Both the position numbers and the translations under genes were made by a program. From positions 1 through 32,732 of the IMG/VR virus record IMGVR_UViG_3300043466_000942: a stretch of 32,732 bases of DNA. One strand, written 5' to 3'. This document shows positions 1-32,732 of the stretch, piece by piece. This DNA is from a virus. How positions within the stretch are numbered: position 1 is the stretch's first letter; the number at the start of each line of letters is the position of its first letter. Under the pieces are notes generated by a model, which saw nothing but the letters and a program-made list of their open reading frames with translations, had not been told where the DNA came from and searched no databases.

Positions 1-259
1 TAATCTGATGTATTCTTTGTTCTACTTCAGCTCTCACTTCCGTTCTACTCAACTTAGGGATTGTATATTCTAATAGCTTAAATGCTAATTCTAATGCAGC
101 TTGTGGGTCTTTCTTCTTAATCTCCTCCAAATCTTTCGATAGGGTTGATAAGGTATTATCTACTGCTCTTGCTATTGAAAGCTTAACCATCTCCGTAGAA
201 CGATTAACTGCTCCCTTTGGTCTTCCTTTACTTAGCTTATTTCCTTTTTCAAATGCCAT
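1..259 (-). CDS. Terminase small subunit, copy cut by the left edge
   Basis: This is the 5' 86 codons of the small terminase gene, starting at the ATG at 259 and running off the left edge. The complete copy is at 32057-32359. The one difference in this stretch (base 77) is synonymous. It is the assembly overlap, not a second gene. Confidence 0.85.
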   Translation of the reverse strand, partial: MAFEKGNKLSKGRPKGAVNRSTEMVKLSIARAVDNTLSTLSKDLEEIKKKDPQAALELAFKLLEYTIPKLSRTEVRAEVEQRIHQI

Positions 260-293
260 TGTTATTTCCTGTTATTTAAACATTTACTTATAT

Positions 294-303
294 TTTAACA
301 CTC
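294..303 (-). promoter_or_regulatory. Late-promoter-like element before the terminase genes
   Basis: On the minus strand this reads GAGTGTTAAA, preceded by ATATTTTTATATAT, 35 bases upstream of the small terminase ATG at 259. The element in front of the scaffold gene at 19913 has the same layout (ATATTTTTATATA, then CAATTGTTAAA). I infer a phage-specific late promoter. The same bases recur at 32394-32403 in the terminal overlap. Confidence 0.4.
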
Positions 304-326
304 ATATATAAAAATATATCTAAAGC

Positions 327-863
327 CTATTTAAATGGATTATTTAGGTTATCTTTGAGATGCTTCTTTACCTTCTTACAATTAAGGTAGACTGTGGATT
401 TAGATAGCTTTAGTTCTGCTGCTAACTTCTCAAATGTCATCTCCTTATCAAATGCGTACATCTGATATATTTTAGATGGTGCCCATAAACGAGTTCTTTC
501 TAATCGTTTAAGTTCATCCACTACTTCGTTGTATGTGTTATCTATCTTCTCGTCTGAATCTATATTGTATTCTACTTCTACTTCATCATACGTGTCCGAA
601 ATTTGTACATTCCTTTTGCCGGCTTTAATCCTATTGTAAAACCTACTACTAATAAATGCGTGGCAGTACATTAAGTTGAATGAATCTAAATACCAAATAG
701 CTGGATTACATTTCTCAGCTAAGTAAAGGTATAGTTCACCAATCAACTCATCTGCTACTTCCGTATCTTTACATAAATTGAAAGCAACTGCGATGAGCCA
801 TCCGTGTGATTTCCTATATAGGATGTCTAATCTCTTATTATTTTCGGTTTGTATTTTATTCAC
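327..863 (-). CDS. ECF-like sigma factor / HTH transcription protein
   Basis: This 178-residue protein has the layout of a small sigma-70 family protein. Residues about 15-80 form a helical region-2-like segment (LDILYRKSHGWL, then VADELIGELYLYL), and residues about 140-172 form a region-4-like helix-turn-helix (MTFEKLAAELKLSKSTVYLN). The middle is acidic. Its start overlaps the stop of the upstream gene (856-1113) by 8 bases, and the small terminase follows. The role is probably transcriptional control, but a DNA-binding packaging or replication accessory protein is possible because no core-binding residue is diagnostic. The 3' half is duplicated at the right end of the window, where one residue differs (Val to Ile). 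Confidence 0.6.
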   Translation of the reverse strand: MNKIQTENNKRLDILYRKSHGWLIAVAFNLCKDTEVADELIGELYLYLAEKCNPAIWYLDSFNLMYCHAFISSRFYNRIKAGKRNVQISDTYDEVEVEYNIDSDEKIDNTYNEVVDELKRLERTRLWAPSKIYQMYAFDKEMTFEKLAAELKLSKSTVYLNCKKVKKHLKDNLNNPFK

Positions 864-1735: not shown

Positions 1736-1829
1736 AAGGTAAACACGCAGCGGAATAAATAAAATGGCAGTTCGATAAAAGACCGCTGCGGTTATACATA
1801 TAACAATTGATTGTGTTTTTGTTTACCTT
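1736..1829 (-). ncRNA. Two-stem structured 3' element, loop-motif family member C
   Basis: Nested inverted repeats lie here. The outer arms are 1736-1744 with 1821-1829 (AAGGTAAAC/GTTTACCTT), and the inner arms are 1746-1753 with 1783-1790 (CGCAGCGG/CCGCTGCG). The inner loop carries TATCGAACTGCCAT on the minus strand, resembling the loops at 3116-3161 and 4687-4721. The outer arm overlaps the stop codon of the gene at 1828-2004, and an intrinsic terminator follows. It is probably a 3' untranslated structure; its function is unknown. Confidence 0.5.
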
Positions 1830-3666: not shown

Positions 3667-4471
3667 TTTTAACAATTTGATTATTAACTAATGTTTTCCA
3701 CTTTGATGGATAGTTTTCTCTAATATCAGCTATCTTTGTAGCAACACGTGGAGTAATCTCATGTAAAGCTTTGTAATTATCTTTAATAAAATCAATTGTA
3801 TTATCAATAACTGTTTTTGAATAACCACCTTCCTTACCTTCACAATTTGTCCCTAACATCTCACAATCTTCAATTAGATGAATAGTGTACAATAACTTTT
3901 CTTGAGTGTTTAGATACACAGGAATGATATTAAAACGAGAACCAATAGCGTTCCAATGGTTCTTAGCTTTCTTAGCAATATCCTCAACCGTATCGTTTGT
4001 AATCCATATAATAGTACCTTGAAAATCAAAACTCATAGGTACTTCATTCTCTCTCATCAATTGGTTAGCTGATGCTCTTTCCCAACTAATCATTCTTTCA
4101 CCCTTAGTTACATCGGTAGCACCTTTTAACATATCTAATATTGCATTCTTTTCAGCTGGAGATTTATGGATAATATCACAGTCATCCAATACAACAACTC
4201 TACCTTTACCTCTATTTAAATAAAGTTTAACATAAAGTGCTGGTGCTGATATAGATGCACCTTTAATATATTCCACTCTCTTTTCAGCTTTAGCATCTGT
4301 AAATGCTTTTTTAACCCAATAGGTTTTGCCAGTACCAGCATCACCTGATACTAATAAACCTTTAAGGGCTGAATACTTTGGAGAAACGAATGATTTTGTC
4401 ATAGTGTAAACTGTATCGAATTTTTCAATTACATCGTTTACAACAGGGTTGAATTTGTTTGTCTTTTTCAT
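3659..4471 (-). CDS. AAA+ ATPase, probable helicase loader or replication ATPase
   Basis: This 270-residue P-loop ATPase has Walker A GDAGTGKT at residues 43-50, Walker B RVVVLDDCD at 91-99, a sensor-1-like WITND at 156-160, and an arginine-finger candidate in GSRFN (R179). There is no helicase or polymerase domain, and the size fits phage DnaC-like loaders or stand-alone AAA+ proteins. Its place at the head of the operon with the initiator-like gene suggests it loads or remodels a host helicase at the origin. A strong host-type promoter (4494-4524) lies just upstream, so it is probably among the first genes expressed. An untypical AAA+ role, for example in DNA transposition or packaging, is less likely. 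Confidence 0.8.
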   Translation of the reverse strand: MKKTNKFNPVVNDVIEKFDTVYTMTKSFVSPKYSALKGLLVSGDAGTGKTYWVKKAFTDAKAEKRVEYIKGASISAPALYVKLYLNRGKGRVVVLDDCDIIHKSPAEKNAILDMLKGATDVTKGERMISWERASANQLMRENEVPMSFDFQGTIIWITNDTVEDIAKKAKNHWNAIGSRFNIIPVYLNTQEKLLYTIHLIEDCEMLGTNCEGKEGGYSKTVIDNTIDFIKDNYKALHEITPRVATKIADIRENYPSKWKTLVNNQIVKNG

Positions 4472-5338: not shown

Positions 5339-5345
5339 AATCTTT

Positions 5346-5376
5346 TTGGTTTTATCAGTTATTTTTTGTATCTTTG
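5346..5376 (+). promoter_or_regulatory. Bacteroidota-type promoter of the late sigma gene
   Basis: TTGG (5346-5349), 19 bases, TATCTTTG (5369-5376), identical in form to the two minus-strand early promoters. It is the only such promoter I found on the plus strand and lies 52 bases before the ATG at 5429. Host polymerase should therefore make the phage sigma factor early. Confidence 0.8.
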
Positions 5377-5388
5377 TAATACTACTAA

Positions 5389-5398
5389 TTTAACAATC
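5389..5398 (-). promoter_or_regulatory. Late-promoter-like element facing the 5338 gene
   Basis: The minus strand reads GATTGTTAAA followed by TTAG, matching the element at 17482 base for base over TTGTTAAATTAG. It lies inside the leader of the divergent sigma gene. The same bases form one arm of a dyad (5391-5397 with 5403-5409, loop CGAAA), so regulation of the sigma gene through this site is possible. Confidence 0.4.
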
Positions 5399-5428
5399 GA
5401 AAATTGTTATATATTAAACGTGTTATAA

Positions 5429-6274
5429 ATGCCGAAAAAGAAAAACCCTAACAACAATTACTTTAATCAGAATGTAGAAGATGCAGTTTGTATCTATCTA
5501 AATTCAGATGACCAAAGAGAAAGAGAAAATGCTTTCAAATTAATATATCCTGCTCTTTGTAAAATAGCAGAAGTTTGGTTCAACAAACTAAAAGTATCTT
5601 ATATGGATACAGACGCAATTGATATGCAGATGGATTGTGTTGCTCACATAGTAGAAAAGATGCACATGTTTGAATGTGGTAAGGGTACTAAGGCATTCTC
5701 TTACATCACAGTAATGGCTAAGTTCTATTATATGATTCACAACAATAGAAACTACACTCACATTAAAAGATATATTCCTATCAGTTATATGTCTGTCGAA
5801 TTTGATACACCTAATACGGATGCTAGGGATGCGAAAGCTAAGGAAGCTAAAATGTTATTAGAGGCCTTCACAATGTATTTGGAATTGAATATTGAACAAA
5901 TATTACCAAAAGAAAAGTATAGACCTGTTGGTACTTACCTAATTGATTTATTGAATAACTTTGAAACCGTTGAGGATATCAATCGTAGAAAGATTGTAAA
6001 TCAAATGGCTGCCGTAGATGGAATGCCATCTCGTCATCACATTACAAAAATAATGAATTACTTAACATCACAATTTAATCTATTCAAAAAGCAATGGATG
6101 GATGGAAATACATCTCTTAATTTTATTGAGAAAACTGAATTAACAAGGGAGGAACAAATGATTGTAAAACAAAACTTTAAACAAAATTCTATTAAGCTTG
6201 GCATTACACGTTTGGCTAAAGAATTTGGTATAAGTGAACCTGTACTTAGAGAGTATATCAGTACTATTATCTAA
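5429..6274 (+). CDS. Late sigma factor, T4 gp55-like
   Basis: This 281-residue protein is the only gene on the plus strand. The N-terminal half matches the region-2 pattern of T4 gp55-type late sigma factors: an early NVEDAVCIYLNSDD, then AFKLIYPALCKIAEVWFN, a conserved DMQMDCVAHIVEKM helix, and KGTKAFSYITVMAKFYYMIHNN (core-binding and -10-reading segment, about residues 94-116). The C-terminus ends in a helix-turn-helix-like stretch (GITRLAKEFGISEPVLREYI). It would bind host core RNA polymerase and direct it to late promoters. Its own promoter is of host type, and its stop overlaps the convergent gene at 6267 by 8 bases. A gp55-type sigma in a 32-kb siphovirus is unusual. Confidence 0.75.
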   Translation: MPKKKNPNNNYFNQNVEDAVCIYLNSDDQRERENAFKLIYPALCKIAEVWFNKLKVSYMDTDAIDMQMDCVAHIVEKMHMFECGKGTKAFSYITVMAKFYYMIHNNRNYTHIKRYIPISYMSVEFDTPNTDARDAKAKEAKMLLEAFTMYLELNIEQILPKEKYRPVGTYLIDLLNNFETVEDINRRKIVNQMAAVDGMPSRHHITKIMNYLTSQFNLFKKQWMDGNTSLNFIEKTELTREEQMIVKQNFKQNSIKLGITRLAKEFGISEPVLREYISTII

Positions 6275-6590
6275 CTCTATATCTCTTACCTTCCCAACGG
6301 CATTCCGTTACCGTTTGTAAATCTATTGTTCTCCAATCACCACCATTGTCTTGTGATTGTACTACCATATAATCTTTTGCTTCGTAATCGTATATAGCAC
6401 CTCTAGCGATACCATTTAAGAATGGTCCCCAGTTCACATCTCTTGCGAATGTACCACCACTTACCTTAGATGATTTAACAAATATAGGTTTAGATGGAGT
6501 ACTCTCCATTAGGAATGCGTAGAATTGTGTAAATGTAATTTCATCTACAGCGAATTGAACTATCTTACTATATACTTTATTACTAGTCAT
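6267..6590 (-). CDS. Hypothetical protein, last gene of the structural block
   Basis: This 107-residue protein is of unknown family. The C-terminal half has a small beta-rich look (GAIYDYEAKDYMVVQSQ, then WRTIDLQTVTECRW, and GKRYRVR), vaguely like the WYL-type beta-barrel of regulators, but without the WYL triad. The N-terminus is helical (VYSKIVQFAVDEITFTQFYAF). Its ATG overlaps the protease stop by 8 bases, so it belongs to the late unit. It ends convergently with the sigma gene, and no terminator is visible between the two. Confidence 0.62.
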   Translation of the reverse strand: MTSNKVYSKIVQFAVDEITFTQFYAFLMESTPSKPIFVKSSKVSGGTFARDVNWGPFLNGIARGAIYDYEAKDYMVVQSQDNGGDWRTIDLQTVTECRWEGKRYRVR

Positions 6591-7956
6591 TATAATATTC
6601 TTTTACAATTTCTATGTGATTATCCATAAACGAAGTATCATGCTTCATACCAACAATGTTATCTACTTCTTCCATTATATCTTTGAAATCATCTACTAAT
6701 AGTACAACTTCTTCATAATCATGTTGAGATGCTATTCCAGCGTTTACTATTTCTTCTTCTTTTCTGAATACATTATCAGCTGCTTGTGCTGCACTTCTAA
6801 TCATTCCTTTTGTATCTTCATCAACCTGCATTGTTACTAAGTGTTCAAATAATTCACTTGCAGTTGGACACATTTGAAAATATCGTGTATGATAACCAAA
6901 TACGTTTACATTTGGTTTCTCAATAGCTAATAAAGCTTTCGTTTTATATTTGTCCTTTCCTTTAGCTGCTTCTCCAGGGTATGTTGATGATACTGATGGT
7001 TGCTCAGCTTCTTCCAATAATCCTAACTCTCTTAATTTGTTTCTACTCCATGCTAAACCAGCTTTACCACCCCATAATAGGTATGATATAGTTCCACATG
7101 CAGCTGAATCACTTTCATCATAGTATGCTTCAGCTCTACTTAAATAAGAGTACATACGTTTGATTGTTTCTATACTAATAGGTTTTCTTTGTGCTAATTG
7201 TTGCGCTCTTACTTTACCTACTGGTGTGGCACATTTGTTACCATTCTTATCGTTTAATTCAATACCTCTCTTAGCATTATTAGCTACACCATCACCATAA
7301 TCAGAAAATGATTCCATTTCCACTCTTTTCTTCCCCTTGTAGCGATTATCTTTCTTAATTACAGCCCTTATCTCACTTAGGATTAGAATCGCTTCTTGCT
7401 CCTCTAAATCACTTAAATAGGTATCTGCTGAAAATAGAGATTGTTGTACTAAGTTGTGTCCGAAAAGGCCTTCAATAGAGAATCCTTTTACTTCGCCGGT
7501 CTTTACATAATCATTCCAAATCTCATCATTATCAATCTTAAAAGTACCCATCCAAGAACCAACCGGAGCATTAAGACCATATAAAGATGATTTATCTTTA
7601 GTAATGCTTTCTTTAATCCAGCTTTCCACAAGGGTAACTCCATTAATTTTCTTATCATGTTCTAATGTTGAAGAATCAGTATATTTCTTTTTAAGATACA
7701 TTTCAGAAAGTTTCTTAATAGTTTCGGGTTTGAAAAACACATGGTATGGTTTTCCAGCTCCATCTATTCTTAATATTTGCTTATTTGGGATTAATATAGC
7801 ACCCATAACCAAACGTTTCTCATCGTTTAGTGCTGCAAATTGTACCTTCTCTTTTTCAAAGAATACAAAATTTGATTCAATAGCTGGTTCTTCTACTAAA
7901 CTAATAGCAAAAACCTCATCTACATTCTCATCTTCAATTACTAATTCGTATATCAT
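6583..7956 (-). CDS. XkdF-like prohead serine protease with fused C-terminal modules
   Basis: This 457-residue protein has several parts. Residues 1-165 match the putative phage serine protease XkdF family: MGAILIPNKQI at 51-61, LEHDKKINGVTLVESWI at 98-114 (H100 a likely catalytic His), and GEVKGFSIEGLF at 154-165 (S160 the candidate nucleophile). Residues about 219-312 form a second module often found with phage head proteins (ISIETIKRMYSYLSRAEAYY, then CGTISYLLWGGKAGLAW). A helical C-terminus (350-457) is unassigned. It should process scaffold and capsid during head maturation. Unusually, it lies after the tape measure, about 11 kb from the capsid gene, behind its own late-promoter-like element (7962-7971). 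Confidence 0.75.
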   Translation of the reverse strand: MIYELVIEDENVDEVFAISLVEEPAIESNFVFFEKEKVQFAALNDEKRLVMGAILIPNKQILRIDGAGKPYHVFFKPETIKKLSEMYLKKKYTDSSTLEHDKKINGVTLVESWIKESITKDKSSLYGLNAPVGSWMGTFKIDNDEIWNDYVKTGEVKGFSIEGLFGHNLVQQSLFSADTYLSDLEEQEAILILSEIRAVIKKDNRYKGKKRVEMESFSDYGDGVANNAKRGIELNDKNGNKCATPVGKVRAQQLAQRKPISIETIKRMYSYLSRAEAYYDESDSAACGTISYLLWGGKAGLAWSRNKLRELGLLEEAEQPSVSSTYPGEAAKGKDKYKTKALLAIEKPNVNVFGYHTRYFQMCPTASELFEHLVTMQVDEDTKGMIRSAAQAADNVFRKEEEIVNAGIASQHDYEEVVLLVDDFKDIMEEVDNIVGMKHDTSFMDNHIEIVKEYYND

Positions 7957-7961
7957 AATAC

Positions 7962-7971
7962 TTTAACAATT
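7962..7971 (-). promoter_or_regulatory. Late-promoter-like element before the protease gene
   Basis: The minus strand reads AATTGTTAAA, five bases upstream of the ATG at 7956, in the short gap between tape measure and protease. It has the same 10 bases as at 17482, 19913, 21868 and 29089. If it is a -10-type element, the transcript would be leaderless or nearly so. Confidence 0.38.
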
Positions 7972-15793: not shown

Positions 15794-17083
15794 TTATTTT
15801 TTATATGTTTCAAAGTTCTTAGAGAAATTTGGATTAGATTTTGAATAATCCATAAGGGTTTCAGTTTCTATATTAGGGTCTACTGATGATGGGTTATCTT
15901 CAATCTCTGCAGGATTTTCAGCCTGTTCGTTAATATCATCTTGCACTTGCTCTACACTCTGACCTGTTTCTTCTGCTGTTTCTGAAAGAATTACCAATGG
16001 AGTTAATTGTTCAAAATACAATTCACTTTGCTCATATCCACCCACAGTCAAAGCTTCAGATAAGAAGTTTATGATTAGGTTTTGGAATGGAGTAATTGTC
16101 ATTGTTTGTAAAATAGAATAAGCTGTTTTCATTTCCTCTGATTGAGAACTAAATCCGTTAGCTACAGTTCTAATACCAAACAATAATGGAGATGTAATTC
16201 TATGTGCAACTAAGATTCTATCTTGTGCGTAATCTGCTACATATTTGTATTTGTCATGTAGGTTATCAGTAGAGATTATATCCAATGTTGGTTTTCTTTC
16301 TGGGTCATCGTTAAATGAAATCATAAATCTACCAGCGTTTCTAGTGCCTGTAAACTTAGATTCGATTAGGTCTTCGATTGTATCTCTTTCTTCAGGAGCT
16401 GGAATACCATTGTTCATATTAACCATCACTAATGGTAAGAAACCATTCTCAATGTTGTTAAGATGTAAGTTAGATAATTCAGCTTCAGCAAATGAGAATT
16501 GTAATGCAGGAATCCAATCAGGTAATGAATAATAATATTTGCCTGGTGAGTAATTCTTAATCCATAAGATTTCCATCTTTTCAGTAGATGTACCGAATGC
16601 AGGAATCTTCTTCTTATTTCTTTGTGCTTTATGGTCAGTCCAATCTATACAATAGAAGTAATTTTCAATCTTTGGTTTATCATATAATTTCTCAGCTCTG
16701 AAGTTTTGTACTGGAGCATGATACATTTTGATTATCTTACTATGGTCATCGTTCCAATAAACTTGGAAACAAGCATTACCAGTTAGTTTCAAATCAAATG
16801 CTACTCTTTTCATTTCTTCTTGAGGTATTAACTTACCTAAAGTTTCTTCAAATCCTTTGTTCTTAGTGTACAATCCTTTACCATATACCAAATCGGCAAT
16901 ACCCTCAATACAAGCTGCGTTAGTTGTTGAGTTGTTGTATGCATCAATTACGTTTTGGAAGAAATCATCAGGACCAATAACGCCTACTGGCACCCATTGG
17001 TATCTTGTCTTTGTATCTTCCGTTATAACTGGTATATCTTGCTGTGTAAGATTTACTACACTAAAGTTTTGATTTACTTTCAT
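15794..17083 (-). CDS. Portal protein
   Basis: This 429-residue protein has the features of phage portals: an N-terminal region about the wing (IEGIADLVYGKGLY), the central AFDLKLTGNACFQVYW, the HAPVQNFRAEK segment, PDWIPALQFSFAEAELSNLH, and the long helix region RITSPLLFGIRTVANGFSSQ before an acidic C-terminus. It should form the dodecameric ring at one head vertex and dock TerL. The ATG lies in a CTAATATG context. The terminase genes are unusually distant (about 14 kb). Confidence 0.85.
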   Translation of the reverse strand: MKVNQNFSVVNLTQQDIPVITEDTKTRYQWVPVGVIGPDDFFQNVIDAYNNSTTNAACIEGIADLVYGKGLYTKNKGFEETLGKLIPQEEMKRVAFDLKLTGNACFQVYWNDDHSKIIKMYHAPVQNFRAEKLYDKPKIENYFYCIDWTDHKAQRNKKKIPAFGTSTEKMEILWIKNYSPGKYYYSLPDWIPALQFSFAEAELSNLHLNNIENGFLPLVMVNMNNGIPAPEERDTIEDLIESKFTGTRNAGRFMISFNDDPERKPTLDIISTDNLHDKYKYVADYAQDRILVAHRITSPLLFGIRTVANGFSSQSEEMKTAYSILQTMTITPFQNLIINFLSEALTVGGYEQSELYFEQLTPLVILSETAEETGQSVEQVQDDINEQAENPAEIEDNPSSVDPNIETETLMDYSKSNPNFSKNFETYKK

Positions 17084-17084
17084 A

Positions 17085-17459
17085 TTAGTCTAAAATTATA
17101 TATTCATTATCTGTCACGTTACTAATGTACACATCTTCTAATGGTATTTGATTAACGTAATTTGTTTTGTCCAAAGGTTGAGTAGTAAATACATTAATAC
17201 TACCATGCCAAATTGAGCATGTTGTATCTGAAATGTAAGCTCTATATTCATCACCAACACTTGCACTTACTAATGTAGGTACTTGCGAAGCAGTGAATGA
17301 TAACTTACTTTCGTATGCATCATAAGAGTAATTTGACAACGATGCTGATGTATTAACAAGTGTTGTCATATCTTGTAGATATAATCTAAGGTTAGAACTT
17401 CCAGTTGGTTGTGTTCTGAATGTCCATACGTTGTTACTAGATGAGTAGTATGTAAGCAT
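17085..17459 (-). CDS. Hypothetical head/neck protein
   Basis: This 124-residue beta-rich protein (starts MLTYYSSSNNVWTFRTQPTG) has no recognised family. Ser/Thr/Asn-rich strands and the absence of charged helices suggest a structural protein. It is the first gene behind the late-promoter-like element at 17482-17491 and precedes the portal by one base, so a role in head completion is the likely guess. Confidence 0.55.
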   Translation of the reverse strand: MLTYYSSSNNVWTFRTQPTGSSNLRLYLQDMTTLVNTSASLSNYSYDAYESKLSFTASQVPTLVSASVGDEYRAYISDTTCSIWHGSINVFTTQPLDKTNYVNQIPLEDVYISNVTDNEYIILD

Positions 17460-17481: not shown

Positions 17482-17491
17482 TTTAACAATT
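17482..17491 (-). promoter_or_regulatory. Late-promoter-like element right after a terminator
   Basis: The minus strand reads AATTGTTAAATTAG, 22 bases upstream of the ATG at 17459 and 26 bases downstream of the terminator T-run (17518-17523). Since the upstream transcript ends at the terminator, a new promoter is needed here for the portal group, which makes this the best single candidate of the set. Confidence 0.5.
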
Positions 17492-17517
17492 TTAGAATTA
17501 ATTATAGTGATAAGCAT

Positions 17518-19194: not shown

Positions 19195-19893
19195 TTATTT
19201 GTATAGTCTTGATAAGAAAGAGTTTTGGGTATTAGCCAAAGTATTCTTCTTACCTAATTTTACTCCGTTTTGTTTTGGTGCGTTTTCATCAATTGGTGCG
19301 CCATCCAATTTAGGAAGTTCTTCATCTTCATCAGGCTCTACTGCTGCCATAGCTACATCACCAGGTAATGGTTCTGCTTTTACTTTCTCAGCTTTCTTTC
19401 CTTCAGAGATTTCTTCTTCCTTAACTTCCATCATACTTTGAATCTTCTTCTCTAATTCTTCAATACGATATGACATGTCTTCCATTACTTTCTTCATGTC
19501 ACCATATTTTTTCATATCTTCTGAAATAGGTTCTGCAGTTTCTTCAGTATCAACTTCCTCGTCATCGCCCATGTCATCACCAGCGATAGATTCCATTTTT
19601 TCTTCTTTCTCGCCTAATTCAACATTCTCTCTTTCAGTGATTTTACCTTCAGCATCCACCATAATCTTAATTCTAACATCGTTACCTTCAGTATCTCTTA
19701 AGATTATTTCATGTTCGCCTTCAGGTGCTGGAGATTTACCATCTTCAGTTACCACATCAACCATTTCACCTACATCAAATGTAGGAGATTCTAAGATTGT
19801 TCCATCAGCAAGTTTTGCGTAAGTAAATAACACTTCTTCTTTTGCAAGAGATAAAGTTGTCATTATCTTTTTTAGTACTTCTGTTGCGTTCAT
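19195..19893 (-). CDS. Scaffolding-like head assembly protein
   Basis: This 232-residue, very acidic protein has three parts: an N-terminal globular segment (YAKLADGTILESPTFDVGEM, about 25-44) seen in Bacteroidota phage head proteins, an acidic linker (GDDMGDDEEVDTEE), and a coiled coil (KVMEDMSYRIEELEKKIQSM, about 134-153) followed by a Lys/Glu-rich end with a basic tip (SFLSRLYK). Acidic linker, coiled coil and basic C-terminus directly before the capsid gene is the layout of a scaffold. An internal ATG (MTTLSLAKEE) is a possible start. Confidence 0.62.
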   Translation of the reverse strand: MNATEVLKKIMTTLSLAKEEVLFTYAKLADGTILESPTFDVGEMVDVVTEDGKSPAPEGEHEIILRDTEGNDVRIKIMVDAEGKITERENVELGEKEEKMESIAGDDMGDDEEVDTEETAEPISEDMKKYGDMKKVMEDMSYRIEELEKKIQSMMEVKEEEISEGKKAEKVKAEPLPGDVAMAAVEPDEDEELPKLDGAPIDENAPKQNGVKLGKKNTLANTQNSFLSRLYK

Positions 19894-19925
19894 ATTATTT
19901 GTATTTTAGTTATTTAACAATTGTA
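19891..19925 (-). promoter_or_regulatory. Late leader with promoter-like element (scaffold-capsid unit)
   Basis: The minus strand has TATACAATTGTTAAATAAC (element 19913-19922), then an A-rich leader ending CAAATAATATG. The whole 35-base block is nearly repeated at 21845-21880. ATATTTTTATATA precedes it, as in front of the small terminase gene. It should serve the scaffold and capsid genes. Confidence 0.45.
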
Positions 19926-19948
19926 TATAAAAATATAGTAATTTTTTA

Positions 19949-21565: not shown

Positions 21566-21847
21566 TTATTTTAATGCTACCACACCAAATGCAGTAGAAG
21601 ATGCAGATACCGCTGTAAAGATACCAGGTATGAAACCTGATGCTGATACAAATGATAATACTGAACCATCATAAGTTTTAGCTACCAATGTTCCTTGAGT
21701 TCCGATGTACAATCCACCAGCTACAAATCCAAATGCTGGATTTTCTGAACTAGCAGATGCAAACGCTGAACCAGAAATAGCTATCACTTGTGCTCCACCT
21801 ACGAATTGTGGGTTAGTAATATACGAATTTTGAGTTTCTAATTTCAT
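21566..21847 (-). CDS. Spike-base-like small structural protein
   Basis: This 93-residue protein follows the pattern of small phage structural proteins in which GGLYIGTQGTLVAKTYDGS (about 44-62) is followed by SFVSASGFIPGIFTAVSAS and a hydrophobic end. This matches what I know of the 'spike base protein, RCAP_Rcc01079' type. It sits between two adhesin genes, behind the late-promoter-like block at 21845-21880. It may connect the spike or adhesin to the tail. Confidence 0.55.
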   Translation of the reverse strand: MKLETQNSYITNPQFVGGAQVIAISGSAFASASSENPAFGFVAGGLYIGTQGTLVAKTYDGSVLSFVSASGFIPGIFTAVSASSTAFGVVALK

Positions 21848-21880
21848 ATTATTTGTTTATTTTATTATTTAACAATTGTA
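21845..21880 (-). promoter_or_regulatory. Late leader with promoter-like element (spike-base unit)
   Basis: The minus strand has TTACAATTGTTAAATAAT (element 21868-21877) followed by an A-rich leader ending in CAAATAATATG. It is a near copy of 19891-19925 and serves the spike-base and glycine-rich adhesin genes. Confidence 0.45.
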
Positions 21881-24616: not shown

Positions 24617-27600
24617 TTATATAAATCTTTTTGCGTTTACAACATAAGCAGTTGTTGAATTTTCTGCTACAATTGATAACACATCTTTTATTCCACTACC
24701 AGATGATGGTAAGTAGAATGAACCAGATGGTTGTTTAATATTTGAACTAAATGATGCCGATGATACCGTACCAGTTGTTACAAAGATATTTGCATTCTCA
24801 CCAGGGTTTAAGTTAGTTACGTTAAAGTGTGTTGTTGCACTATTTGCTAAAGTTACAGTAAAGAAGTTTCCTGCATTCATATCAATTGATGCTGTGTTAC
24901 TTGCTACTGTTACTGCTACCACATTACCTTGCGCTGAACCAGTTATGATTATTGAACCAGTTATTACTGCAGAGCCTGTGAAAGGGAATTGTGTTAATCC
25001 TGCAACATTACTTCCACTAATAACATATAATGTATTAGGGTCTTTAGGTGTCAGCGATGAGTATGATGCTGAATCTAAAGTTACGATGTTATTAATTCTT
25101 GGTATAGTAGTATAAGTGTCCGTTACGTTACTTACAAATGAGCCACTAAATGTACCGCTTGTATAATAGTTGATAGAATTAAATCCTATTGAACCAGTGA
25201 TTCCTAATGAACCTGTAATCAATGCAGAACCAGTGAATGGGAATCCAGCTCCAGTTCCACCACTTCCACCAGCTAATGTTATAGATGCAGTGTTATCATT
25301 AATTGTAAGGGCTTGTACGGCACTTCCACTAAATAATAGATAAGTTGCTGTTCCTACATTTGTTGAACCAGAAGCAAATCCAAATGGTTGTGCTGATGTT
25401 CCGTTTGTACCATTAACTCCGTTTGTACCATTAATGCCGCTTGTACCATTTACTCCATTAGTTCCATCTAAGCCGCTTGTACCATTTACTCCATTAACAC
25501 CCGATGTTCCATTTACACCACTTGTACCATTTACTCCCGATGTACCATTTACTCCAGATGTACCATTTACTCCAGATGTACCTGATGAACCATTTGTTAC
25601 AGTTGAACCTGATACGATGTATAATGTATTGGGGTCTTTTGGTGATAATGCTGAGTAAGATGCTGAATCTAAAGTTACAATTCTATTTGCAGGTGCTACG
25701 TTTGTATAAATGTCACCTAATGTACTTACAACACTTCCACTTAAAGAAGCTGATGAAATTAATATTGAACCAGTTACACCTAAACTTCCAGTTATTTGTG
25801 CTGAACCAGAGAATGGGAAACCAGCTCCAGCTCCACCTTCAATCTTAATAGATGCTGTTGAGTTAGCTACACTATATGATTGAACTCCGCTTCCACTAAT
25901 TGAAATATATGTTGCAGTTCCAATTATATCACTTCCACTAGCAAATGTAAATGCAGTTGCTGACGTTCCAGATGTTCCCGATACACCGCTTGTTCCACTC
26001 AATCCAGAAGTACCATTCGTTGCGCTCAATCCAGAAGTACCTGATGTACCATTTGTAACCGTAGAACCAGAAACAATATAAAGTGTATTAGGGTCTTTTG
26101 GTGTAAGAGCTGCGTATGAAGCAGAATCTAAAGTTACTATCTTTTCTGCAGCCGGTACGTTTGTGTATGTATCACCTAAGTTTGTTACTACTGATGAACT
26201 AAATGAGCCACTTAATAATGTTAAGCTTCCAGTAACTCCTAATGAACCTGTTATTTGTGCTGAACCAGAGAATGGAAATCCACTACCTACTCCACTTATT
26301 ATAATTGATGCAGTTCCAGAATTTACAGTTGCAGTAACACCACTTCCACTAAAGTTTAAGAATGTTGCTGCTCCTTGCGCTGTACCTTCATCAGCTACCG
26401 TTAATATTGTTGTTAATCCAGATGTACCATTACTTCCATCTGCGCCTGATGTTCCATCAACCCCAGATGTTCCCGATACACCGCTTGTTCCGCTAACACC
26501 ATTAGTACCATTAATACCTGATGTGCCATCTACGCCTGATGTTCCGCTTACTCCGCTAGTACCATTTATTCCAGAAGTTCCATCAACTCCCGATGTGCCA
26601 CTAACACCGCTAGTTCCATCCACACCGCTCGTACCATCTATTCCAGAAGTACCATTACTTCCGTTTACACCGCTCGTACCATCTACGCCTGATGTTCCAT
26701 CAACTCCAGACGTTCCGTTGATTCCTGAGGTTCCTGATACCCCAGAAGTGCCACTAACTCCGCTTGTGCCGCTTACTCCTGATGTTCCTGATACGCCTGA
26801 AGTACCATCTACTCCGTTTGTACCATTCGTACCATCTATTCCAGAAGTGCCGTTAATACCGCTCGTACCATTGATTCCTGATGTGCCGTTTACCCCTGAT
26901 GTTCCATTAACTCCAGAAGTACCTGAAGTACCATTGAATACTAATGAGCCTGAAGGTATTGCTATTGGATAAGAATTTGAATTACCTACCCACACATATC
27001 CTTCTTGTATGTTTGGAAGTGTAGCAGGACCAGGGTTTAAAACTAAACCTTTTCCACCACTACCTTCTTTTGTTACTATTCCTAATAATTGTATAATTGC
27101 TGAACCAGTTGGTCTTATGTTTGTAAAACCACCACCTGCAGCTGCGTATATTTCAGCTCCTTCAGCGTATCCAGTTGTATTAACCGCATCTATCTGTCCT
27201 AATATAATACCTCTACCAGTATTTGCACTATTGATATTATCACCTATAATATATGTTACAGGCATTTTAGCTGGATTAGCAGCATCTGCTCTAAATACTT
27301 TTGGATTTGCTCCTACTGAACCTGATACATAAACAGGCGTTCCTCTTAATAAAGTTGTTGCTTCACCATTATATACCGTATCGTTTGTTGTATTAACATA
27401 TTGTAATGATAGATTACCATTACCATCCGTCTGAATAAAACTAAATTCACCATTGTCAACAGTTGGATATTTCAATCCACTAGCTGTTAATCCACCAACT
27501 AAGTTAGAACCTGATTGTACTGATAAAGAGCCTGTTATTGAAACTTGTCCAAATAGTAATTGTGTATCATTAGCTGCATCACCTAATTGGTTTGAGCCTG

Positions 27601-28621
27601 ATGAGTATATTACACTTGCTGTTTCTATTTGTACTAATAACTTAGATGCAGTTATATCACCTGTTACATTCAAACTACCATTTATTGTTTGGCTACCATT
27701 GAATGTATTAGAACCTGTTGTAGCGTAAGAACCAGTCTTAGCTTCCAAGTTTTGTATTCTACCTGTATTTGAAGATATGTTTCCTTCATCAGTTGTCAAA
27801 CGAGTTGATAGAGATGAAGATAAAGTATTTAATGAAGATGTACTTGCGTATGAGCCTGTTACACTAATTAAAGCGTTTACTTTAGCATCATTAGAAGCAG
27901 TATATGAATTGAATGAAGATGTTGTTGTATATGAGCCACTAACTGCTTGAAGTGAATCTACTTCAGCTATTAGAGTATCTATTTGTGCTTTTACCGAACC
28001 TGATACTACATTAATTCTATTATCAATTGATGTACTAACCGAATTGATTGTATTCACTAATGATTGAGATACAGCTGCAAGAGATGATGTAGTTGCGTAT
28101 GAACCAGTCACCGCTTGTAAAGAATCTACTTCAGCTTCTAATACATTAATCTCATTCGCAACACTTGCACTAAACACATTGTTTGATGCTGTATATTGGT
28201 TAATAGATTGTGTGAAAGCATTTATAGATTGTGTATATGCATTAAACGATGAAGTAGTTACTAAATTACTAATATCTACTGCAGTTGCGTTTACATTAAT
28301 TGTTGCTGTTGCACCTACTAAGGATGCAGTTATACTAGCTCCCACAAAGTTTAATGTAGTTGCTGCTCCTAATGATACACCTTCTTCTTGAATTACAACA
28401 CCACTACCTGATAGTACTAAGTTATCCACTTGAGCTTCTAACATTGCTATACTTCCAGAGAATGATGATGAATCTATATTGTATGAACTCTCATCAACTA
28501 AAGAATCAATCATGTCAGTATTGAATTCTCTTAATATTGTTGGAGTAATAGCACCTACGTTGTTATTAGGAAAACTACTTTGATTTTCAGCTTGTAATTG
28601 CGTTTTATTTAATTGAGACAT
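24617..28621 (-). CDS. Collagen-like modular tail fibre protein
   Basis: This 1334-residue protein is the largest in the genome. Residues 1 to about 340 are helical Ser/Thr-rich heptad units with repeats such as LEAEVDSLQAVTGSYATTSS, then a T4-fibre-like beta region (INGSLNVTGDITASK) and a conserved domain (TTLLRGTPVYVSGSVGANPK). From about residue 562 a collagen-like tract of Gly-Thr-Ser/Gly-Val-Asn triplets runs for about 170 residues. Then come three copies of a unit with FPFSGSAQITGSLGVTGS and LDSASYxALxPKDPNTLYIV, separated by shorter Gly-X-Y tracts. The C-terminal 90 residues form a head domain. It forms a long trimeric fibre. Confidence 0.82.
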   Translation of the reverse strand: MSQLNKTQLQAENQSSFPNNNVGAITPTILREFNTDMIDSLVDESSYNIDSSSFSGSIAMLEAQVDNLVLSGSGVVIQEEGVSLGAATTLNFVGASITASLVGATATINVNATAVDISNLVTTSSFNAYTQSINAFTQSINQYTASNNVFSASVANEINVLEAEVDSLQAVTGSYATTSSLAAVSQSLVNTINSVSTSIDNRINVVSGSVKAQIDTLIAEVDSLQAVSGSYTTTSSFNSYTASNDAKVNALISVTGSYASTSSLNTLSSSLSTRLTTDEGNISSNTGRIQNLEAKTGSYATTGSNTFNGSQTINGSLNVTGDITASKLLVQIETASVIYSSGSNQLGDAANDTQLLFGQVSITGSLSVQSGSNLVGGLTASGLKYPTVDNGEFSFIQTDGNGNLSLQYVNTTNDTVYNGEATTLLRGTPVYVSGSVGANPKVFRADAANPAKMPVTYIIGDNINSANTGRGIILGQIDAVNTTGYAEGAEIYAAAGGGFTNIRPTGSAIIQLLGIVTKEGSGGKGLVLNPGPATLPNIQEGYVWVGNSNSYPIAIPSGSLVFNGTSGTSGVNGTSGVNGTSGINGTSGINGTSGIDGTNGTNGVDGTSGVSGTSGVSGTSGVSGTSGVSGTSGINGTSGVDGTSGVDGTSGVNGSNGTSGIDGTSGVDGTSGVSGTSGVDGTSGINGTSGVSGTSGVDGTSGINGTNGVSGTSGVSGTSGVDGTSGADGSNGTSGLTTILTVADEGTAQGAATFLNFSGSGVTATVNSGTASIIISGVGSGFPFSGSAQITGSLGVTGSLTLLSGSFSSSVVTNLGDTYTNVPAAEKIVTLDSASYAALTPKDPNTLYIVSGSTVTNGTSGTSGLSATNGTSGLSGTSGVSGTSGTSATAFTFASGSDIIGTATYISISGSGVQSYSVANSTASIKIEGGAGAGFPFSGSAQITGSLGVTGSILISSASLSGSVVSTLGDIYTNVAPANRIVTLDSASYSALSPKDPNTLYIVSGSTVTNGSSGTSGVNGTSGVNGTSGVNGTSGVNGTSGVNGVNGTSGLDGTNGVNGTSGINGTNGVNGTNGTSAQPFGFASGSTNVGTATYLLFSGSAVQALTINDNTASITLAGGSGGTGAGFPFTGSALITGSLGITGSIGFNSINYYTSGTFSGSFVSNVTDTYTTIPRINNIVTLDSASYSSLTPKDPNTLYVISGSNVAGLTQFPFTGSAVITGSIIITGSAQGNVVAVTVASNTASIDMNAGNFFTVTLANSATTHFNVTNLNPGENANIFVTTGTVSSASFSSNIKQPSGSFYLPSSGSGIKDVLSIVAENSTTAYVVNAKRFI
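24920..26420 (-). repeat. Three fibre modules with collagen-like spacers
   Basis: Within the fibre gene, three copies of the module encoding SGSAQITGS ... LDSASYSALTPKDPNTLYIV lie at about 24960-25300, 25620-25900 and 26080-26400 (the PKDPNTLY codons are near 25030, 25630 and 26085). Gly-X-Y tracts at about 25395-25596 and 25960-26055 separate them. Boundaries are approximate. Confidence 0.7.
26417..26936 (-). repeat. Long Gly-X-Y (collagen-like) codon tract
   Basis: About 173 codons in which every third residue is Gly, mostly as Gly-Thr-Ser with Gly-Val-Asn, Gly-Val-Ser, Gly-Ile-Asn or Gly-Val-Asp. The DNA repeats are imperfect with mixed synonymous codons, so the tract has been kept at protein level while the DNA diverged. 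It should fold as a collagen-type triple helix in the fibre stalk. Confidence 0.85.
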
Positions 28622-28893: not shown

Positions 28894-29073
28894 TTATGAT
28901 TTTTTATATATTAGACCGATACCCTGTGAACCTATCTTCTTATCACAACACTTAATATCATATACTGGTTTATTCCAGCATAGACATCCCATGCGATTAC
29001 CTTTCCTCGGAGATGATAATGAATCAACTCTACCTTTCTTTGGTTTGGGCGGATAAGATGTTTTTAGTTTCAT
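28894..29073 (-). CDS. Small Cys-motif protein, paralogue 2
   Basis: This 59-residue ORF begins MKLKTSYPPKPKKG and contains GCLCWNKPVYDIKCCDKKIG then SQGIG. The same spacing occurs in the next gene (GCLC...Y...CC...Q.IG), so the two are paralogues. It overlaps no other gene, and its stop is one base before the next ATG. It begins 15 bases after the late-promoter-like element at 29089-29098. Confidence 0.68.
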   Translation of the reverse strand: MKLKTSYPPKPKKGRVDSLSSPRKGNRMGCLCWNKPVYDIKCCDKKIGSQGIGLIYKKS

Positions 29074-29088
29074 CGGATTACTTTATCT

Positions 29089-29098
29089 TTTAACAATT
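29089..29098 (-). promoter_or_regulatory. Late-promoter-like element before the Cys-motif and fibre genes
   Basis: The minus strand reads AATTGTTAAAAGATAAAG, 15 bases before the ATG at 29073. It shares the ten-base core with the elements at 7962, 17482, 19913 and 21868. Confidence 0.42.
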
Positions 29099-29902: not shown

Positions 29903-30559
29903 TTATTTTATTTTCCATAGTTTAACGAAATGAGAATCTCTGCCATCCCCTTCTGAATGTATTTCGGTATGTGTATTCTCTATATGTGTCATCAATTGTT
30001 TTTGTTTTACTCCACCTAAGAAGTTATGTAGCTCCATAACAATATACTTTACTCCACTTAATTCAGCATGGATTAAGAAATCATATTCAGCTCCTTCACA
30101 ATCTATTTTTAACAAACCAACTTCTCTATCTCTTATAAGGTCTTTAAATGAAAGGGTAATACATTCTTCCCATTCTCCTTGCCATCCATGTCCATTTTCT
30201 CCATTAACAAACTCTTGCGTACCAAAGTTGCCTGATAGGGTATCATCCTCACCAGCCATATACTTCATTAATCTTACAACTTGTCCGCTTGTACTTCCAA
30301 CTGCATTTCTACTATACGAACCATCATATCCATTCAATCTTATTTGTTCACAATTGTAAACTGATGGCTCTACTAAATGCCAATTATCAAATCTCCATTT
30401 CCATGCATTCCAAAATCCACCAACGTTAGCTCCAATATCTAATACCAATTCATCCTTTTGGATATCTACTGAATCTATTGGATATGCTTGACATTCTCTT
30501 GTCACAGTATCATACCAGTCAGCTGGTTGATTGTTTGCTATTAACTTTTCTACTTTCAT
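29903..30559 (-). CDS. FkbM-family SAM-dependent methyltransferase
   Basis: This 218-residue protein has the FkbM layout: SAM motif I VLDIGANVGGF at residues 39-49, a later EPS segment after the second strand (HLVEPSVYNC, 61-70), and the FkbM hallmark LLKIDCEGAEYDFL at 149-162, followed by IVMELHNF at 173-180. FkbM enzymes usually O-methylate small molecules or sugars. In a phage the target could be host surface glycan, phage particle glycan or a modified nucleotide. It lies between a coiled-coil gene and the 29254 protein, downstream of the terminase genes. Confidence 0.82.
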   Translation of the reverse strand: MKVEKLIANNQPADWYDTVTRECQAYPIDSVDIQKDELVLDIGANVGGFWNAWKWRFDNWHLVEPSVYNCEQIRLNGYDGSYSRNAVGSTSGQVVRLMKYMAGEDDTLSGNFGTQEFVNGENGHGWQGEWEECITLSFKDLIRDREVGLLKIDCEGAEYDFLIHAELSGVKYIVMELHNFLGGVKQKQLMTHIENTHTEIHSEGDGRDSHFVKLWKIK

Positions 30560-30909: not shown

Positions 30910-32073
30910 TTATCGTACACTTATTACATATTTTCCTTTAGCCGTAGCTACATTACTTAATCTCATCATTGCTCCATAACGAGCTGCATCTATTAAGTGG
31001 TCCATACCACCTTCGGGGTTATCCGTTACATGCTGATGTTTATCCATAGCCCATTGATACGAATAGAATTCATTAATTAGATTCTGACATGTCTTAGGAA
31101 TAAACAACTTATAGTTTTGTAGAACCTGAATACCAAAACGAATACTATCCTTACCTTTGATTACAGGCTTGGTATTGAATCCTAAACGATACAGCTCCTC
31201 AATCATTCTTGGGTCAGATGAATCGCACCATATCTCCCAACGATTATCACCTACTATTTCTTTTAGCTTATCAGCAATTTCCGTTGTCACCATTCCCTTT
31301 TCGTAGCAGTTCTCAACTAAGTAGATATCATTACCTTTACGGAACAGAGAAACGATTGCAGTAGGGTCTTGTGAGAATCCAAAGTCCATCCCTATACACA
31401 CAAAATCTGCATCATCAGGCACCCATTCACATTGTTCAAATTGGAATATAGCCCTTTCATTACCAACGTATTCACCTAAACCATATACCTTCCATGCTTT
31501 TGGATTAGTATGCCTTAATTCTTCAATGGCTCTCTTTACTGAATCCTCTAAGTAAATGTTGTTCTTATATGTGGTGAAGTAACGTGTACACTCCTGCATC
31601 TGCCTTATCCAATGATATGGTGATATAGTAGGGTTGTAAGATAATATGATTGGACCTGTTGTACGAATTTGTAGCTGGAAATAAGATTCCTCATCTATTT
31701 CGTTTGCTTCCTCTAACCATAAGATACTACTCTTTAATCCTCTTAGCTTCTCTGCATCATCGGTAGATATAAATTGTATTGTACTATCATTATAGAATGT
31801 GTATATCCTATCGGTAATATTAAAATCATTTTCATTCCATACACCAATTAGCTGCATTACATCTTTAAAATCTTTCATAATGGTACGCTTCAAAGATGGT
31901 ATTGTCTTTCGTACAACAGTCACTTCTTGCTTACTCTCTAAAGCCTGTACAATAATCCATTGTAATAATGCGTATGTCTTGCCACTTCGAGTACCACCAA
32001 TGTGATGTGTTACACGTGTTGGTGAATTCTGCTGATTGGAATAAGTGATTGTAGTATTAATCGTTAGTTCCAT
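30910..32073 (-). CDS. terL: Terminase large subunit
   Basis: This 387-residue protein carries both terminase activities. ATPase: Walker A GGTRSGKT at 26-33, Walker B ILWLEEANE at 117-125 with catalytic Glu, and coupling motif PIILSYNPT at 141-149. Nuclease (RNase H fold): GMDFGFSQDP at 228-237 (D230), IWCDSSDP at 281-288 (D284) and GMDHLIDAARYG at 356-367 (D358, D362). It packages DNA into the prohead through the portal and cuts it. The ATG lies 17 bases inside the small terminase gene. It is somewhat short for the family but complete. The long distance to the portal gene is unusual. Confidence 0.95.
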   Translation of the reverse strand: MELTINTTITYSNQQNSPTRVTHHIGGTRSGKTYALLQWIIVQALESKQEVTVVRKTIPSLKRTIMKDFKDVMQLIGVWNENDFNITDRIYTFYNDSTIQFISTDDAEKLRGLKSSILWLEEANEIDEESYFQLQIRTTGPIILSYNPTISPYHWIRQMQECTRYFTTYKNNIYLEDSVKRAIEELRHTNPKAWKVYGLGEYVGNERAIFQFEQCEWVPDDADFVCIGMDFGFSQDPTAIVSLFRKGNDIYLVENCYEKGMVTTEIADKLKEIVGDNRWEIWCDSSDPRMIEELYRLGFNTKPVIKGKDSIRFGIQVLQNYKLFIPKTCQNLINEFYSYQWAMDKHQHVTDNPEGGMDHLIDAARYGAMMRLSNVATAKGKYVISVR

Positions 32074-32359
32074 TACTGCCGGTTTGGTTTATGTTTACTG
32101 TAATCTGATGTATTCTTTGTTCTACTTCAGCTCTCACTTCCGTTCTACTCAACTTAGGGATTGTATATTCTAATAGTTTAAATGCTAATTCTAATGCAGC
32201 TTGTGGGTCTTTCTTCTTAATCTCCTCCAAATCTTTCGATAGGGTTGATAAGGTATTATCTACTGCTCTTGCTATTGAAAGCTTAACCATCTCCGTAGAA
32301 CGATTAACTGCTCCCTTTGGTCTTCCTTTACTTAGCTTATTTCCTTTTTCAAATGCCAT
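32057..32359 (-). CDS. Terminase small subunit (probable)
   Basis: This 100-residue protein starts MAFEKGNKLSKGRPKGAVNR, a basic DNA-binding N-terminus (KGRPKGAVNRST) common in small phage packaging proteins, followed by a helical centre (TLSKDLEEIKKKD, AALELAFKLLEYTIPK) and an oligomerisation-like tail. Its stop overlaps the TerL ATG by 17 bases, which makes small subunit the best reading. The left end of the window holds a second partial copy (1-259) that differs at one synonymous base. Confidence 0.72.
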   Translation of the reverse strand: MAFEKGNKLSKGRPKGAVNRSTEMVKLSIARAVDNTLSTLSKDLEEIKKKDPQAALELAFKLLEYTIPKLSRTEVRAEVEQRIHQITVNINQTGSNGTND

Positions 32360-32732
32360 TGTTATTTCCTGTTATTTAAACATTTACTTATATTTTAACA
32401 CTCATATATAAAAATATATCTAAAGCCTATTTAAATGGATTGTTTAGGTTATCTTTGAGATGCTTCTTTACCTTCTTACAATTAAGGTAGACTGTAGATT
32501 TAGATAGCTTTAGTTCTGCTGCTAACTTCTCAAATGTCATCTCCTTATCAAATGCGTACATCTGATATATCTTAGATGGTGCCCATAAACGAGTTCTTTC
32601 TAATCGTTTAAGTTCATCCACTACTTCGTTATATGTGTTATCTATCTTCTCGTCTGAATCTATATTGTATTCTATTTCTACTTCATCATACGTGTCCGAA
32701 ATTTGTACATTCCTTTTGCCGGCTTTAATCCT
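32101..32732. repeat. Terminal overlap, right copy
   Basis: Same orientation as 1-632, with six transitions between copies (see the left copy). Covers most of the small terminase gene, the late-promoter-like element (32394-32403) and the 3' end of the ECF-like sigma gene. Confidence 0.93.
32427..32732 (-). CDS. ECF-like sigma factor, copy cut by the right edge
   Basis: This is the C-terminal part (from about residue 78) of the protein encoded completely at 327-863. The reading frame stays open to the window edge. The two copies differ at five bases in this stretch, one of which changes a Val to Ile near residue 97. It is an assembly overlap, not a second gene. Confidence 0.8.
   Translation of the reverse strand, partial: RIKAGKRNVQISDTYDEVEIEYNIDSDEKIDNTYNEVVDELKRLERTRLWAPSKIYQMYAFDKEMTFEKLAAELKLSKSTVYLNCKKVKKHLKDNLNNPFK

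Follow-up and report, generated by a model that had tools for sequence, protein, structure and literature searches.

The SIG55 locus and the phage that carries it

In this study, we analysed the virus record IMGVR_UViG_3300043466_000942 over its full length of 32,732 nucleotides, referred to here as the window. On its plus strand, at positions 5429..6274, lies SIG55, a gene with an ATG start that encodes a gp55-related sigma factor of 281 amino acids. In agreement with the sequence-only reading, this is the only likely plus-strand gene, since the remaining plus-strand ORFs overlap longer minus-strand genes and the SIG55 ORF is kept in relatives. It is oriented divergently from the rest of the genome, whose minus strand carries the terminase (large subunit at 30910..32073; phrog_2, 4.5e-42), portal (15794..17083; phrog_33693, 3.2e-57), tape-measure, protease and fibre genes. 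A second sigma-like protein, SIG2 (178 amino acids; 327..863, minus strand), is encoded directly before TerS. The fibre protein (1334 amino acids, 24617-28621) contains long GTSG-type repeats with an 18-nt unit, and a methyltransferase-like gene (29903-30559), found in some relatives only, directly follows the terminase gene.

The window has a 632-bp direct terminal repeat (1..632, repeated at 32101-32732 with 6 mismatches) and is therefore very likely a complete genome of ~32.1 kb. The mismatches between the two copies suggest that the assembly of the ends combined strain variants; the database record is classed as being without end repeats. Sheath family matches were absent among the window genes in a search in which the myophage immuto, serving as positive control, did match, and the phage is likely a siphovirus, an assignment that rests on this absence. 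The description of a compact 32-kb phage was thus borne out. The window portal is related to those of small flavophages of 35.7 kb. A search of genome contigs for a host or prophage relative found none, so that the assignment to a Bacteroidota host, which is probably correct, rests on the promoter type and on the related phages.

In relatives covering the locus, SIG55 likewise has the opposite orientation and is flanked by g5015 on one side and by g6267 or the protease gene on the other. Both SIG55 and SIG2 are present in near-complete records of 32,467, 31,092, 32,538 and 27,594 bp, and in the first three the terminal repeats are 159, 127 and 99 bp long, respectively. In three related complete genomes of 31-32 kb, SIG55 occupies the same position and is preceded by a host-type promoter that is conserved. 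Further relatives of the protein were identified by tblastn in LR756508 (484 kb), the Flavobacterium immuto phages (160 kb) and the Microcystis phage Mel-JY01 (190 kb), and there are at least 569 in viral contigs. The sequence-only reading assigned late sigma factors of this kind to large myoviruses; this is true of all named relatives, which come from phages of 160-484 kb, but a separate clade exists in ~32-kb phages, whose nine SIG55 sequences are separated from the rest of the tree by a 100/100 branch.

A host-type promoter of the flavobacterial sigma-A kind, TTTG-N20-TATCTTTG (5345..5376, plus strand), precedes SIG55, as had been proposed. Its upstream box fits the flavobacterial consensus TAnnTTTG (PMC9723704) and is kept in 17 of 18 upstream regions of SIG55, as TAnnTTTG in 12 and as TATCTTTA in 5, with L013 differing. 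Between SIG55 and the minus-strand operon lies an inverted repeat, TTTAACAATC...AATTGTTATA (5387..5411), in which the phage -10-like element described below occurs twice, with both copies facing outward; the repeat is conserved between the divergent genes in relatives.

Relationship of SIG55 to T4 gp55

The reference for this comparison was T4 gp55, a late sigma factor (PDB 7D7C chain F; phrog_234). On its own, the SIG55 sequence matches the phrog_234 late sigma family weakly (E 0.012); among the 41 members of the SIG55 family, phrog_234 is matched by 10 and Pfam Sigma70_r2 by 7 (best 2.2e-4). Searches of the PDB by sequence with SIG55, both single and profile, gave no sigma match, and a profile of 10 annotated gp55 proteins (alignment A3) matched nowhere in the whole records. 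When the 41-sequence family alignment (A2) was compared with A3 using hhalign, a Prob of 86 and an E-value of 5e-6 were obtained; a second run, in which match columns were set by the first sequence, gave Prob 94.5, E 7.9e-8 and a score of 56.4, whereas none of 40 controls with shuffled columns scored above 22.2. The region-2 homology spans residues 10-102 of SIG55. The gp55 residues involved in -10 recognition and in binding of the clamp helix and core polymerase are known from cryo-EM work (PMC7892883). The promoter-reading Y97 corresponds to Y92 in SIG55 and is a tyrosine in 41/41 family members, F86 corresponds to F81 (F/Y in 40/41), E70 to D65 (acidic in 38/41) and D74 to D69 (acidic in 39/41); the position of E77 is not kept (A/S/T/C in the family) and that of T99 varies. 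The claim that the N-terminal half follows the region-2 pattern of gp55 was therefore confirmed, and it is well supported that SIG55 is a gp55-related sigma factor.

The AlphaFold model of SIG55 (pLDDT 84.5, pTM 0.53) returned fold matches that are nearly all sigma factors. Foldseek E-values were 0.2 and above, with nothing below E 0.001, and the fold case consequently rests on how uniform this list is, and on the conserved residues and the profile comparison. A structural comparison with sigma-70 region 2, which the sequence-only reading had suggested, was made with VIA-align; the region-2 domain (residues 8-115; 5450..5773, plus strand), which includes Y92, F81, D65 and D69, aligned with sigma2 domains at 2.5-3.1 Å over 88-96 residues with Z 8.2-8.6, middling values of a kind that helical folds easily reach. 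The 7D7C chain F was absent among the best 50 matches of the whole model, which carries no weight either way.

SIG55 is nevertheless not a plain gp55. It is 281 amino acids long compared with 185 in T4 gp55 and, unlike the latter, it has a middle helical part (residues 128-228; 5810..6112, plus strand), which is common to the large-phage relatives. Beyond this, the C-terminal end of T4 gp55 is a sliding-clamp-binding motif, whereas small-phage SIG55 proteins end in a homeodomain-like helix-turn-helix (HTH; residues 234-281; 6128..6271, plus strand), a feature that was not part of the earlier reading. Modelled alone, the C-terminal half has a pTM of 0.77; a search with this model for region 4 (sigma4), whose HTH in sigma-70 factors reads the -35 element and contacts the beta flap, gave no clear match, only weak helical matches and homeodomains, to which residues 234-281 align by VIA-align with Z 5-6 and 2.2-2.9 Å over 45-48 residues. 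According to alignment A4, the HTH occurs only in the small-phage clade and is missing from the large-phage proteins. A search for the sliding clamp (PF02916) gave nothing over the cut-off in either small or large phages, and its absence from the window thus says little.

The large-phage proteins, represented by gp152 of Flavobacterium phage immuto_3-5A and hundreds of relatives (TQETEDAI family), belong to the same family as SIG55 with 23-32% identity. They share its N-terminal and middle parts, lack the HTH and are annotated as hypothetical; in immuto and Mel-JY01 the gene precedes genes for the baseplate or tail lysozyme. In immuto, a single element like that of T4, TATTTATA, is found before 13/66 late versus 8/158 other starts, and a search near it for a fixed upstream element found none. 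It is likely that gp152 is the late sigma factor of this Flavobacterium T4-like phage (L102-L104).

A promoter-like motif and a second sigma-like gene

The sequence-only reading had pointed to AATTGTTAAA sites before structural genes, and this was substantiated: six exact sites are present in the window, all on the minus strand, when 0.24 would be expected. We found that the element is part of a bipartite promoter-like motif, ACTAY-N12-RATTGTTAAA, which, like SIG2, had gone unmentioned before. ACTAY and TTAAAT are 17 bp apart, a spacing like that of -35 and -10 elements. On the minus strand, ACTAT-N12-AATTGTTAAA occurs at 19913..19939, 19 nt before the gene at 19195-19893 and upstream of the capsid gene, and at 17482..17508, 22 nt before the gene at 17085-17459 and the portal block. 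The -10-like AATTGTTAAA occurs on the same strand at 21868..21877 (20 nt before the gene at 21566-21847), at 29089..29098 (15 nt before a small ORF, 28894-29073, and the fibre block) and at 7962..7971, 5 nt before the protease-like gene (6583-7956), where it is found at the same place in 5/5 genomes compared; sites otherwise mostly lie 15-32 nt before structural genes. A -10-like AATTGTTATA (1799..1808, minus strand) lies upstream of the genes for HNH, 856, SIG2, TerS and TerL. The copy of AATTGTTAAA at 3668 is inside a gene and may be due to chance.

A count of RATTGTTAAA over five genomes gave 29 sites on the late strand against 4 on the other, where shuffled sequences had a mean of 2.2 per strand and a maximum of 7. 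In 17 of the 29, the spacer to ACTAY is exactly 12. As the genomes are related, these sites are not independent, although motif and spacing are retained between flanks that vary. The full bipartite motif has 12 late-strand sites and none on the other strand (shuffle mean 0.025, maximum 1). The motif was present in all SIG55-bearing genomes or long contigs examined (the window, G001-G004, G007, G015, G017 and G019). T4 resembles this arrangement in that a TAAAT-like -10 element is found at its late genes. Its late promoters have a lone TATAAATA-type element and no conservation at -35 (PMC2988020), which differs from the bipartite motif of the small phages, if that is the cognate promoter.

The only independent lineage within the group that lacks SIG55 is represented by two contigs, G016 and G020, which are 99.7-99.9% alike over an 8.5-kb overlap and together cover the gene set; only one of nine further contigs searched for a second such lineage covers the locus, and SIG55 is present there. 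G016/G020 retain SIG2, have no late-strand RATTGTTAAA, and lack the full motif as well as the ACTAY element. They do have TTGTTAAATAA before two late-strand genes, which indicates that the -10 core does not need SIG55. As motif and SIG55 are both missing where SIG2 is kept, SIG55 is favoured as the reader of the full motif, on the evidence of this one lineage.

How late transcription may be directed

T4 is the standard example of late transcription by a pared-down sigma factor that depends on a coactivator and the replication clamp. The reading we prefer, with a probability of roughly 0.6, is that SIG55 is a sigma factor of the gp55 kind that is made early and then directs the host core polymerase to phage-specific promoters. 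According to this model, SIG55 would be produced early by the host RNA polymerase from the host-type promoter and would then bind host core polymerase through its region-2 domain. It would direct the core to promoters of the form ACTAY - 17 bp - TTAAAT, with TTAAAT lying within RATTGTTAAA, which precede SIG55 itself, the operon containing SIG2 and the terminase, and the blocks of structural genes. The HTH would read ACTAY and so replace the T4 helpers gp33 and gp45. The computed basis of the model is the homology, the region-2 fold, the promoter-reading residues, the host-type promoter and the bipartite motif with its strand bias; core binding, the timing, the HTH-ACTAY link and the choice of SIG55 over SIG2 as motif reader are what we infer. 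It is likely, judging from the sequence, that SIG55 reads late promoters. The link between HTH and ACTAY is proposed because the large-phage proteins lack the HTH and the immuto motif lacks a fixed upstream element, and is a correlation between two groups.

A serious rival, even if we consider it rather unlikely, is that SIG2 is the late sigma factor that reads the RATTGTTAAA promoters, with SIG55 serving another promoter set or stage. The SIG2 family matches the RNAP sigma factor family phrog_1740 in 11/11 members and Sigma70_r2 in 6/11, its gene stands before TerS-TerL throughout the group, a place also taken by late regulators of other siphophages, and it is SIG2 that remains in the SIG55-less lineage with the TTGTTAAATAA core. 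RinA and Ltr of Gram-positive siphophages are small phage-coded late-gene switches adjoining the terminase genes, in a position like that of SIG2; they have been described as activators dependent on repeats that precede a sigma-A-type promoter, and the late promoter of staphylococcal phages is preceded immediately by the late regulator (PMC13123087). A parallel is also offered by Nonlabens phage P12024S, whose portal, protease, capsid and terminase are related to those of the window and which encodes a Sigma70_r2 protein, gp33, near the terminase; SIG55 was absent from it in a profile search, as was RATTGTTAAA from its late strand, and it has a repeated CGTTAATATA-like element of its own, which immediately precedes the start codon ATG in several structural genes (L223) and is a probable phage promoter. 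However, the full motif and ACTAY are missing where SIG55 is missing, and the phage-type -10 elements before SIG55 and before the SIG2 operon would place SIG2 downstream of SIG55.

It seems more doubtful still that SIG55 is a former sigma factor that now acts as a DNA-binding activator or repressor, mainly of its own divergent region, with the inverted repeat at 5387-5411 as its operator. The conservation of this repeat and the presence of the HTH would fit such a role, but the gp55 residues for holding core and reading the -10 element are conserved, and the motif is also found far from the divergent region in late orientation. That the window represents part of the genome of a large T4-like myovirus, with nothing unusual about it, is barely credible and was rejected on the terminal repeats of the window and of three 31-32-kb relatives; the named relatives of SIG55 do come from large phages, but the portal is akin to that of small flavophages and the sheath match seen in the immuto control is absent.

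Returning to SIG55 as the reader of the late promoters, SIG55 and its motif suggest a very compact on-switch for late genes. The simple early-to-late switch envisaged from the sequence is too strong in its one-factor form, given the second sigma-like gene before TerS-TerL and the related -10 core kept by the SIG55-less sister lineage. A more specific idea, which we put forward tentatively, is that a gp55-type sigma factor gained a C-terminal HTH and with it a -35-like element in ~32-kb siphophages, and may thereby have changed from a late factor dependent on helpers to a self-sufficient two-module sigma that acts beside SIG2 in a two-factor cascade. What the data reveal is a real gp55-related sigma factor in a new arrangement in a compact phage, much smaller than T4, together with its probable target promoters. 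If true, SIG55 would show how a gp55-type factor can become independent through an added DNA-binding domain and promoter element, and it would provide a compact promoter system for Bacteroidota. From the analysis, hundreds of proteins annotated as 'hypothetical' in large aquatic phages also acquire a function that can be tested, as probable late sigma factors.
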